From Thermoplasmata archaeon (lineage in GTDB: Archaea; Thermoplasmatota; Thermoplasmata; Thermoplasmatales; GCA-001856825), in NCBI GenBank assembly GCA_023256475.1, contig JAGDXP010000022.1, forward strand, positions 73,929 to 137,928: a DNA stretch of 64,000 nt. The letters are read 5' to 3'. A model generated the notes under the pieces. It made no database searches and was not told the origin of the DNA. It saw nothing but the letters and a program-made list of their open reading frames with translations. Positions 32,069-39,843 of the stretch are shown here, piece by piece. Every line of letters starts with the position of its first letter. Positions within the stretch are counted from its first letter, which is position 1. Both the position numbers and the translations under genes were made by a program.

Positions 32069-32839
32069 TTAACTAAAATTAGTTTCAGCCTGTTCGATAC
32101 TCTCCAGAGTTATATCTATAGGTAAGCTTTCTTCCTTCTGATTCAATTTTGATATAGGCTTCGGTTTCACCTCATTATTAACAAACTGCTTAAAAGATTG
32201 CAGCCAGATGCTCTGCAAATATTTCTGGGTCATTTTTAATTGGGTAAATATATTTTCTGCAAATTTCCTGTTCAACTGGTCAACAGTCTCATCCAGGGAA
32301 TCATTTTCGAAAGTTTGGATGCGGCAGCTGAGTTTGTGAAGATGCTGAAGCACAGTGGTGTATATTTGATTTCTTTCTTCTTCGAATTCAAAAGGCTTTA
32401 TCAGGTAGACAGAAAATGGAAGTAACTGCTCATGTAAATTGAACGCCAGCTCTAACGCAGCATATGCACTTGAACCACCCATTCCAGTTATCAATATAAA
32501 GTAATCGTTATTGCCGAGTATTCTGTCTCTTATTAATTGAATTTTTTCCTTCATAGCCCTTCTGCCTATTTCTGGTTTTCCTGACGTATCTTTATGATCC
32601 AATATTATGTCTTCGCCTATTAAGATCGTTTCTATTCCCATTCTCCTCTTATTCGATAGTTGGTCAGTGTTTATACAGAAAAACCTTACATTGCTTAATT
32701 TTTTACTCATCTCCTCAACTATGTTGCATCCAGCACCGCCTAGACCTATCACTGCTATGAAAGGATCATCAAGGAGGCCATCTCTTTTCATTCTATCGTA
32801 TAATAGGGCAGCTTCATAATCACTCATTACCTCACTCAT
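32069..32839 (-). CDS. Short divergent FtsZ/tubulin-superfamily protein
   Basis: I choose ATG 32839, which overlaps the RHH stop by 8 nt and has a GAGGTGG Shine-Dalgarno upstream; an in-frame ATG at 32869 also exists. The 256-aa protein follows FtsZ through the GTPase domain: FIAVIGLGGAGCNIV (27-41), FFCINTDQ (53-60), GKPEIGRRA, and LIKPFEFEEERNQ (146-158). The tubulin signature is altered: GMGGSSAYA (119-127) replaces GMGGGTGTG. The protein stops before the C-terminal domain and has no T7 catalytic loop. GTP binding is plausible, but FtsZ-like hydrolysis is not expected. Confidence 0.85.
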   Translation of the reverse strand: MSEVMSDYEAALLYDRMKRDGLLDDPFIAVIGLGGAGCNIVEEMSKKLSNVRFFCINTDQLSNKRRMGIETILIGEDIILDHKDTSGKPEIGRRAMKEKIQLIRDRILGNNDYFILITGMGGSSAYAALELAFNLHEQLLPFSVYLIKPFEFEEERNQIYTTVLQHLHKLSCRIQTFENDSLDETVDQLNRKFAENIFTQLKMTQKYLQSIWLQSFKQFVNNEVKPKPISKLNQKEESLPIDITLESIEQAETNFS

Positions 32840-33251
32840 ATCTTTTATCCACCTCTTCATCATTTGCAAGGTTTAGGTCCGGTAGATTATCTCCATTCTT
32901 CTTTGTATCTGCAATCCATTTTACCCTCTTATTCAATATCGCAGGTAAAAACCCTTCAGAGCCAGCTCTATCAATTATGAAGTCTATGGCCTCCTCATAA
33001 CTGTCAAAATATCCCTTCTTTATGTATGGTTCGAGGGCTTTAAGAGTTGCTGTGGAAATTCCATTGGAAATCGCTTGCGGCTTCTGTATCTGATTTGCTC
33101 CCTTTATGTAGCTAAAGATTGCAGCTCTTATGAATTCAGATTTGGTCTTAAATTTCAAAGTTGTGCTTAGAAAATCATTTATTTCATCGTCTTCCTGGGG
33201 TGTTAGCCTCAATGCAATCCTTCTGGAGTTATCTCCGGACATCCTTTTCAT
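32832..33251 (-). CDS. Ribbon-helix-helix DNA-binding protein
   Basis: The N-terminal half of this 139-aa protein is a ribbon-helix-helix (CopG/Arc-type) domain: RRIALRLTPQEDDEINDFLS, then the second helix KTKSEFIRAAIFSYIKG. The C-terminal half (about 60-139) is helical, contains YFDSYEEAIDFIID, and ends in an acidic tail. It is translationally coupled to the FtsZ-like gene by an 8-nt overlap. RHH proteins usually bind tandem sites upstream of their own operon; a tandem repeat lies 158-205 bp upstream of this start. An alternative start is MSGDN (33242). Confidence 0.85.
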   Translation of the reverse strand: MKRMSGDNSRRIALRLTPQEDDEINDFLSTTLKFKTKSEFIRAAIFSYIKGANQIQKPQAISNGISTATLKALEPYIKKGYFDSYEEAIDFIIDRAGSEGFLPAILNKRVKWIADTKKNGDNLPDLNLANDEEVDKRYE

Positions 33252-33408
33252 CTCTTAATATTGAATATGATACAAGCTGTATTTAAATCTTTTTGATCAG
33301 TTCGACGTTTAAAAAATTTGTTTCCATTAATAATAAATTTTATAATTTTTTGTGAAATGCTGAAAATTAATCATTATATTGGTTATATGACTGAATGTTT
33401 ATTAGAGG

Positions 33409-33456
33409 ATGTCAAACGATTATTTTAATTTGTATGTACAAATGTCAAACCGTTAT
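33409..33456. repeat. Imperfect 15-bp direct repeat, candidate RHH site
   Basis: ATGTCAAACGATTAT (33409-33423) recurs as ATGTCAAACCGTTAT (33442-33456), 13 of 15 identical, with a 33-bp period (about three helical turns). It lies in the 323-bp gap between the divergent RHH and aIF2-beta genes. The rest of that gap is AT-rich promoter sequence, including GATTTAAATAC near 33281 on the minus strand as a TATA-like element for the RHH gene. Spacing and position fit a cooperative operator or small centromere-like site. Confidence 0.5.
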
Positions 33457-33574: not shown

Positions 33575-34189
33575 ATGGAAGATCAAAATTATTTATCGCT
33601 CCTGAAGAAGGCAAAAACTTCAATAAGCAAAAAGGTTGATTCCAATAGATTTCAAGTTCCTAAACCTGAAATCATCATGGAGGGTAAAATAACCATACTG
33701 AAAAATTTCAAGGATATAGTGGAGACAATTAATCGTGAAAGAGAGCATATATACAAATATCTGTTGAAGCAATTTGGCGTTTCTGGGGAAATAGACGAAA
33801 GCGGAAGACTAGTACTTAAAGGAAAAATTTTAGAGGAAAACGTTGAGAAAGCATTGAATGAGTATTTAAGGATTTATGTGCAGTGCTATGAATGCGGTAG
33901 TTATGATACCGAACTGGTTAAGCAGAATAGGAATGAACTCGTACATTGCAAGGCATGCGGAGCAGAAAGGCCATTATTCGCTAAGAGGGAAATCAGATCT
34001 GCAGAGGAAAAGGTAGAAGAGGGCAAGGAATATGAGGTCACCATAACAGATGTAAACAGAGATGGTGACGGAGTAGCAGTTAAGGGCGAATATACGATAA
34101 TCATACCAGGAGCAAAGAAAGGAGAAAAAGTAAGGGTAAAGATTGAGAAGATAAAGAAGAATTATGCAATAGGACAACTGGTGAAATGA
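33575..34189 (+). CDS. Translation initiation factor aIF2-beta with TRAM domain
   Basis: I start at ATG 33575 (MEDQNYLSLLKKAK); two in-frame upstream ATGs (33494, 33554) would add non-homologous residues. The 204-aa protein is the beta subunit of aIF2, which delivers initiator tRNA. The central alpha/beta domain precedes a zinc ribbon (CYECG...CKACG). A C-terminal TRAM domain (about 145-204, VEEGKEYEVTITDVNRDGDG) adds a beta-barrel RNA-binding module, also seen in some other euryarchaea. It overlaps the PIN-domain gene by 4 nt. Confidence 0.93.
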   Translation: MEDQNYLSLLKKAKTSISKKVDSNRFQVPKPEIIMEGKITILKNFKDIVETINREREHIYKYLLKQFGVSGEIDESGRLVLKGKILEENVEKALNEYLRIYVQCYECGSYDTELVKQNRNELVHCKACGAERPLFAKREIRSAEEKVEEGKEYEVTITDVNRDGDGVAVKGEYTIIIPGAKKGEKVRVKIEKIKKNYAIGQLVK

Positions 34190-38810: not shown

Positions 38811-38818
38811 TATAAATA
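38811..38818 (+). promoter_or_regulatory. TATA box of ftsZ
   Basis: TATAAATA is centred 27 nt before ATG 38842. An upstream in-frame ATG (38818) overlaps the box itself, so it cannot lie on the transcript. This is the main reason for choosing the 38842 start. Confidence 0.6.
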
Positions 38819-38841
38819 TGGAATTAATTTTACAATTGTGC

Positions 38842-39843
38842 ATGGAAATGACCAATCAAGAAATCGCTAAAGATACTGATCAAGAACTAATTGAGATATT
38901 GAAAACACTCAAGACAAATATTAAGATTATTGGCTGTGGCGGATCAGGATCAAATACAATTTCAAGAATAATGGAGGAAGGAATTACCGGCGCGGACGTT
39001 GTAGCAGCCAATACTGATGCACAGCATTTGTTATTAACCCAAGCTCCAAGGAAGATACTACTGGGCAAGAGGCTTACCAGAGGGTTGGGGGCAGGTGCAA
39101 TTCCACAGATAGGTGAGCAGGCGGCCAGGGAAGCTGAGGACGAAATCAGGTCAGTTGTGGAAGGAGCTGATATTGTTTTCGTGACAGCAGGAATGGGAGG
39201 AGGAACTGGCACCGGCTCAGCGCACGTTGTGGCAGAACTGGCCAAACAGGCAGGTGCTCTGGTAATAGCTGTGGTAACGTTGCCCTTTACCAGCGAGGGA
39301 AGAATGAGGATGGAGAATGCAATGTGGGGTTTGCAGAAGTTGAAGGAGAAGTCTGACACGGTCATAGTCATACCGAACGATAAGTTACTCCAAATAGTCC
39401 CAAGATTACCTTTGAATGAGGCATTCAGGTTTGCAGATGAAATATTAATGAGTGCCATCAAAGGATTGACCGAACTAATTACAAAACCCGGGCTGGTGAA
39501 TTTGGATTTCAATGACCTAAGGACTGTGATGAAGGACGGTGGAAGCGCCATGATTGGAATTGGTCAGTCCGGAAGTCAACAGAGGGCTCTGGATGCCGCA
39601 AGGAAAGCTCTAACTTCTCCGCTTTTGGAATCAGATATTTCCACCGCTACCTCAGCCATAGTTTCAGTGACGGGCAGCTCCAATATGTCTGTTGAGGAAG
39701 CACATTCAGTTTTGGAAGAGGTCAAAAAGGCCATAAATCCAAATGCAAGAATAATATGGGGAGCCCGCATTGATGAATCTATGAAAAATGATATAAAGGT
39801 CCTTACCATACTGGTTGGAGCCAAAAATAAATATTTGCCGTGA
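38842..39843 (+). CDS. ftsZ: Cell-division GTPase FtsZ
   Basis: Canonical archaeal FtsZ (333 aa from ATG 38842). Intact motifs: IKIIGCGGSGSNTI, the tubulin signature AGMGGGTGTGSAH, VVTLPFTSEGRMRMENA, IVIPNDKLL, and the T7 synergy loop LVNLDFNDLRTVM. It polymerises at midcell to drive division. It heads the secE-spt5-ribosomal protein operon, as in many euryarchaea; secE follows after 10 nt. Compare the degenerate homologue at 32.1 kb. Confidence 0.97.
   Translation: MEMTNQEIAKDTDQELIEILKTLKTNIKIIGCGGSGSNTISRIMEEGITGADVVAANTDAQHLLLTQAPRKILLGKRLTRGLGAGAIPQIGEQAAREAEDEIRSVVEGADIVFVTAGMGGGTGTGSAHVVAELAKQAGALVIAVVTLPFTSEGRMRMENAMWGLQKLKEKSDTVIVIPNDKLLQIVPRLPLNEAFRFADEILMSAIKGLTELITKPGLVNLDFNDLRTVMKDGGSAMIGIGQSGSQQRALDAARKALTSPLLESDISTATSAIVSVTGSSNMSVEEAHSVLEEVKKAINPNARIIWGARIDESMKNDIKVLTILVGAKNKYLP

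Follow-up and report, generated by a model that had tools for sequence, protein, structure and literature searches.

An RHH protein and a GTPase-domain-only FtsZ form a conserved, putatively autoregulated gene pair in the class Thermoplasmata

The window analysed here, a whole stretch of 64,000 nucleotides from a Thermoplasmata archaeon (contig JAGDXP010000022.1 of assembly GCA_023256475.1), carries an RHH gene (RHH-A) directly upstream of a gene for a short FtsZ reduced to its GTPase domain. The reading that we favour, with a probability of about 0.5, is that the two encode an autoregulated RHH regulator and its nucleotide-responsive co-regulator, and that the pair, a derived relative of the archaeal cdrS-ftsZ operon in truncated form, would have arisen at the base of the class or close to it. 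The RHH protein, with its two RHH-like units, would bind GTATGAC-type half-sites in its own promoter and control the operon, as the conserved operators suggest. The short FtsZ, having neither T7 loop nor C-terminal domain, should be unable to form canonical protofilaments and would bind the RHH protein as a co-regulator, GTP or GDP occupancy switching the RHH protein wherever the phosphate loop is kept. In the window's genus and in the Thermoplasmataceae, where decay of the loop was observed, the short FtsZ may persist beside the RHH protein in a fixed, structural role. The locus looks like a cell-division gene turned regulatory partner, and if this is correct, living archaea put the tubulin fold to a regulatory use that involves no filament, a use conserved across the class, with the nucleotide site lost in two lineages.

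Both open reading frames described by the first-pass annotation, an RHH gene and a 256-aa FtsZ homologue overlapping it, were confirmed (Table 1); the overlap is 8 nt, and the FtsZ measures 256 aa from its ATG or 266 aa if an upstream TTG start is used. The short FtsZ matches Pfam Tubulin (PF00091) with an E value of 4.5e-13 and 50.3 bits, above the gathering cut-off of 33, and gives no Pfam match to FtsZ_C. In alignment its C-terminus follows an H7-like helix, the T7 loop and all beyond it being absent, which agrees with the stop before the T7 loop noted earlier. Against the NCBIfam equivalog model TIGR00065 it reached 61.3 bits, below the cut-off of 295, and covered model positions 18-182 of 353. 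An AlphaFold2 model of the protein, built with 17 relatives (pLDDT 79, pTM 0.76), comprised the FtsZ N-terminal domain, a terminal long helix and a disordered tail, and the best 50 Foldseek matches listed against the PDB were all FtsZ (top E 3e-11, TM 0.62 over ~190 residues). The tubulin-superfamily fold, which had been named beforehand as a check on the proposal, is thus borne out by sequence and model, and the domain is of the tubulin/FtsZ GTPase type.

Table 1. Features of the RHH-A-short FtsZ locus and its surroundings (window coordinates; distances are from the RHH-A start)
Feature	Position	Strand	Description
Short FtsZ gene	32069-32839	-	256 aa; GTPase domain and H7-like helix; no T7 loop or FtsZ_C
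T4 phosphate loop GMGGSSAYA	32459-32485	-	Residues 119-127; replaces GGGTGxG
RHH-A gene	32832-33251	-	139 aa; basis: ORF call, relatives, helix pattern
RHH-A protein helices			N-terminal RHH 18-30 and 37-53; second RHH-like pair 67-78 and 85-98; third helix 101-118
TATA-like box of RHH-FtsZ operon	33280-33287	-	Gene strand TTTAAATA; basis: consensus and conservation in sister species
Third operator-like site GTCGAAC	33300-33306	-	-55; just upstream of TATA-like box
Operator copy 1 (putative, from sequence)	33409-33423	-	Gene strand CGTTTGACAT; -166
Operator copy 2 (putative, from sequence)	33442-33456	-	Gene strand GGTTTGACAT; -199; 33 bp from copy 1
aIF2-beta gene	33575-34189	+	Divergent neighbour in the window's family and Thermoplasmataceae; served to fetch named relatives
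Canonical full-length FtsZ gene	38818-39843	+	GTPase and FtsZ_C; upstream of Spt5; ~6 kb from the pair

The RHH assignment stands with one correction. Pfam RHH_1 gives no match to the window's RHH-A, whose identity is drawn from its helix pattern and from its relatives, which match both Pfam RHH_1 and NCBIfam CdrS; a PDB sequence search with the RHH profile returned chance matches only. RHH-A is 94% identical to its counterpart in the sister species, and identities across the window's family range from 42 to 49%. Both genes of the pair are under purifying selection, as evidenced by comparison with the sister species: pN was 0.10 and pS 0.82 for the short FtsZ (given as pN/pS, the synonymous sites being saturated), and dN/dS was 0.03 for the RHH gene.

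All short FtsZs examined in the class (~70 loci) have an RHH gene directly upstream, which bears out gene-pair conservation in relatives, another check that had been set in advance. The taxa concerned include Aciduliprofundum, methylotrophic methanogens, I-plasma and others. Short FtsZs of 230-310 aa proved widespread when 117 genomes of the order and 300 of the class were searched by profile, and Pfam searches found FtsZ_C absent from the short proteins examined. Within the window's family, which includes I-plasma and CPBay_Spr30G08_8, an orthologue was present in 14 of 15 genomes (the one missing it is 52% complete), with the RHH gene directly upstream in 14/14 and aIF2-beta nearby on the opposite strand where the contig reaches. 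The RHH gene was likewise directly upstream at 20/20 loci chosen from the best short matches in ten further families of the class and at 29/29 loci in family f10, an unselected set obtained by a plain PF00091 search; the pairs inspected in Aciduliprofundum-type genomes were intact. A scan by way of aIF2-beta added Thermoplasma, Ferroplasma, Acidiplasma, Cuniculiplasma and Aciduliprofundum, and among 50 RHH loci adjoining that gene 49 had a same-strand partner directly downstream, the remaining one being cut by a contig end. We take the sampled relatives to include T. acidophilum, A. boonei and Ca. Methanoplasma termitum, and f10 to be Methanomethylophilaceae-like. Among the matches listed from other classes of the phylum almost all were long, full-size frames, and by sequence the short form looks specific to Thermoplasmata. 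A conserved operon order could, by itself, also come from co-regulation of proteins that form no complex.

The gene order and overlap also resemble those of a type II toxin-antitoxin pair, here an RHH antitoxin with a truncated, FtsZ-poisoning FtsZ, and the relatives' RHH proteins weakly resemble ParD/VapB-type antitoxins. Such a pair is nevertheless most improbable: the genes are single copy, vertical, in the same neighbourhood across genera and under strong purifying selection, and they are kept in genomes without FtsZ_C, where the supposed poison would have no target.

In a tree of the GTPase domain alone (56 rows, 185 columns), the short FtsZs fell on one side of a branch separating them from all full-length FtsZs (ultrafast bootstrap 100, SH-aLRT 98.7, 200/200 bootstrap trees). 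Two sequences initially labelled as full-length turned out to be short types whose starts had been extended too far, and a quick tree that included more long branches looked similar. The short FtsZs of the window and the sister species form a long branch, yet are placed with their own family. The canonical FtsZ that had been reported close by has both domains and lies outside the clan of the short FtsZ; the window's genome (1.39 Mb, 28 contigs) holds three FtsZs with FtsZ_C, the short FtsZ and another fragment.

An RHH gene and an FtsZ gene in one operon are known already from cdrS-ftsZ2 of Halobacterium and Haloferax (PMC7439475, PMC8406309), and the proposal of a new RHH/tubulin-superfamily module must be read in this light: the module is real and conserved and its repeat is operator-like, but this nearest known system had gone unnamed. 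As in cdrS-ftsZ2, the RHH gene immediately precedes the FtsZ gene in the same orientation, conservation is vertical, and most of the relatives' RHH proteins have CdrS (NF058555) as their top NCBIfam family, with scores of up to 34.8 bits for relatives and 12.2 bits (E 0.14) for the window's RHH-A against a cut-off of 100 bits. In contrast to cdrS-ftsZ2, the partner is no full-length FtsZ, having neither C-terminal half, FtsZ_C nor T7 loop and forming a clan of its own; RHH-A is a tandem protein of ~120-140 aa rather than the ~60 aa of CdrS; and the short pair persists where neither canonical FtsZ nor SepF is detectable. A search of the open-access literature found no description of a truncated RHH-linked FtsZ, and the literature searched likewise held no truncated FtsZ clan with a tandem RHH, a recurring operator and persistence without the Z-ring.

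The class also has a second pair (type B), in which RHH-B (~104-122 aa, two RHH_1 stretches) lies directly upstream of a full-length FtsZ with FtsZ_C. The strongest matches to the CdrS model come from RHH-B (to 8e-21 and 73.8 bits, under the 100-bit cut-off), which points to this pair as the likely counterpart of cdrS-ftsZ2. The partner of RHH-B in the window's family is a decayed protein of 284-291 aa; it has no Pfam match, though profile alignment still links it with type-B FtsZ (prob 91.5). A copy is found on contig C3 of the window's genome (L131 1802-2668, 2643-2999), where a second RHH gene overlaps a 284-288-aa pseudo-FtsZ with no Pfam match. RHH-B stands before pheT, with no ftsZ next to it, in two Thermoplasmataceae (L248, L249), and in one f2 genome (L247) it remains with the neighbouring ftsZ gone. 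An RHH-adjacent FtsZ has thus lost its nucleotide loops twice, independently, while the gene pair stayed.

Kinship with TubR-TubZ-tubC, to which the first-pass annotation had likened the locus, was rejected on sequence and domain content. The two systems share a DNA-binding protein, a tubulin-superfamily GTPase and repeats; however, the profile matched FtsZ at 1e-21 and TubZ/RepX only at 3e-5, the half needed for TubZ-type filaments is absent, an RHH protein with a tandem helix-helix pattern replaces the winged helix, and the pair is chromosomal and vertical. As for iterons like those of tubC, the locus has two or three conserved sites that appear operator-like. FtsZl1 resembles the short FtsZ in having an FtsZ-like GTPase domain without T7-region elements; unlike the short FtsZ, it carries coiled-coil and helical C-terminal extensions, and no RHH partner is mentioned for it (PMC2875224). 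An FtsZ-like clade of Culexarchaeia, Thermoplasmata and Bathyarchaeia outside FtsZ1, FtsZ2 and CetZ, described as uncharacterised (PMC9723716), includes Thermoplasmata sequences and may overlap with the short FtsZ family; the passages on this clade give neither truncation nor an RHH link.

The 15-bp direct repeat reported upstream of the pair was confirmed, with 87% identity between copies and a period of 33 bp. Both copies and the third site stand at identical positions in the sister species, and three of the seven GTC[AG]AAC sites on both strands of the whole window fall within the 324-bp RHH-A promoter. In the neighbouring genus g2, GTATGAC (once GTTTGAC) lies 23 bp upstream of GTC[AG]AAC in 9/9 promoters listed, and in unprompted k-mer counts the two leading words were GTATGAC and TATGACA, in Aciduliprofundum and again in the wider class. 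Relative to the rest of the same loci, GTATGAC was enriched 38-, 17- and 159-fold upstream of RHH-A in three groups, the last being the window's family, with P values that are inflated because the motif was picked from the same sequences used to test it and the sequences are related. A stronger argument for an operator than these P values is independent recurrence at differing distances from the start codon: the distance of GTATGAC-type sites from the RHH-A gene varies between families, and their recurrence therefore reflects more than aligned conserved DNA. The sites often flank the TATA-like box. On these grounds we take the direct repeat to be the window genome's version of a putative operator, not a chance occurrence, through which the pair probably controls itself; the conserved operator is an immediate handle for binding assays. 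Thermoplasmataceae promoters upstream of RHH-A carry other enriched words, GTATGGC and GTATGTAC (L159, L160, L185, L192, L203, L207), possibly a sign of shifted RHH specificity.

Sites upstream of the operon would also suit a segregation module in which, by analogy with ParM-ParR-parC and SegA-SegB, the repeats would act as a centromere to which the RHH protein binds as adaptor, with the short FtsZ as a cytomotive or positioning NTPase. The RHH protein SegB of the SegAB system of Sulfolobales acts in this manner, its binding sites lying ahead of its own operon (PMC12284271), and the locus shares with SegA-SegB an RHH protein, putative sites in the same place and an NTPase partner. One Thermoplasma RHH weakly matches the ParR model (7e-5), and the independence of the pair from the Z-ring described below agrees with such a role. 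We nevertheless hold it to be unlikely. SegA is a ParA ATPase, whereas the partner here is a PF00091 protein that has neither the T7 loop nor the C-terminal domain which tubulin-type filaments require; the pair persists in two lineages that lost the GTP loop; the exact GTTTGAC pair at the repeat's spacing occurs once in the 1.39-Mb genome; and a search of 72,556 plasmids returned three distant FtsZ matches only and no short RHH-linked FtsZ.

The independence from the Z-ring is seen in f10. FtsZ_C was undetected in 15/16 f10 genomes searched, with a weak match in the remaining one, and SepF was undetected in 12/16, and in nearly every genome of the family, single-contig ones included, no FtsZ but the RHH-linked short one has intact GTP loops (example loci are L216-L222 and L296-L324). 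SepF otherwise tracks full-length FtsZ in these genomes and has been reported absent where FtsZ is absent (PMC8178401). Since the pair is kept in f10 without detectable FtsZ_C and mostly without SepF, a canonical Z-ring is not required. That the FtsZ is split, with the C-terminal domain encoded at another locus, was considered and rejected, PF12327 being missing in those 15 genomes and weak in the other.

As the sole FtsZ to keep its GTP loops intact in nearly all f10 genomes, the short protein might be a working cytoskeletal FtsZ that assembles unconventionally and is the only division FtsZ of Methanomethylophilaceae-like archaea, its expression regulated by the RHH protein as CdrS does for ftsZ2; the operon order is indeed the same. 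We consider this improbable, because the T7 loop and C-terminal domain are absent, SepF is absent in most f10 genomes, relatives in the class carry the short FtsZ beside several full-length FtsZs, and it decays in two lineages to a form without GTP loops. Unlikely, too, is a modulator of FtsZ, in which the short protein would use its GTP face to cap or sequester full-length FtsZ, thereby tuning the Z-ring, the RHH protein doing no more than autoregulate the operon. A GTPase domain without T7 is the expected shape of an end-capping, dominant-negative FtsZ, CdrS binds upstream of ftsZ1 in Haloferax (PMC8406309), and Thermoplasmataceae without FtsZ have no FtsZ-like partner (14/14), but the pair is retained in f10 without detectable FtsZ_C and mostly without SepF, and the decayed T4 loop of the window's genus should weaken binding through the GTP face. 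Returning to the co-regulator reading, we suggest tentatively, and with less than even confidence, that the short FtsZ could be a non-polymerising, GTP-sensing tubulin-superfamily subunit of a DNA-binding regulator throughout the class and, in f10, the last FtsZ with intact GTP loops after full-length FtsZ and, mostly, SepF were lost. How Methanomethylophilaceae-like methanogens divide thereby becomes testable, their sole FtsZ with intact GTP loops having no filament-forming half and most of them no detectable SepF.

The altered T4 loop GMGGSSAYA, confirmed by alignment, had been stressed in the first-pass annotation. Within the window's family this loop is confined to the window and the sister species, sampled genomes outside the genus keeping GGGTG, and most short-FtsZ relatives retain the canonical GGGTGxG. 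It was rejected as a novelty, since one genus only within the family has it, and across the sequences compared it is a loop decay local to that genus, no trait of the short-FtsZ family. The window's short FtsZ retains the T1 loop GLGGAGCN, the residues NTD and the conserved E153, R156 and N179, which by alignment with known FtsZs should lie near the nucleotide base and ribose; partial nucleotide binding is therefore possible.

In the Thermoplasmataceae the RHH-A partner is mostly 244-281 aa long, is missing both phosphate loops and aligns by profile to that of the window's family (prob 97, E 7e-11). Given a pair independent of the Z-ring and a GTP loop that is dispensable under purifying selection, a partner of an RHH regulator fits better than a filament.

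In some Thermoplasmataceae genera PF00091 found no match (15 genomes, the majority of them at least 96% complete), and there the RHH-A partner is a 157-179-aa protein in 14/14 loci, versus a long partner in 20/22 loci of genera with FtsZ. This association hints that FtsZ matters to the partner in the Thermoplasmataceae; the FtsZ-less genera may be one clade and reflect a single event, and the association is therefore suggestive only. Profile comparison gave no significant similarity between the 157-179-aa and the long partner, and homology of the former to the short FtsZ is unsupported, position alone linking them. FtsZ-less Ferroplasma-type genomes keep RHH-A and the 157-179-aa partner at the same operon position (L124, L125, L128, L129, L272-L281). 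Elsewhere in the window's own genome, on contig C18 (L005 1372-2118), a 248-aa FtsZ-like protein is encoded directly 3' of an Orc1/Cdc6-like AAA+ gene; of the GTPase domain it matches the second half only (E 8e-8).
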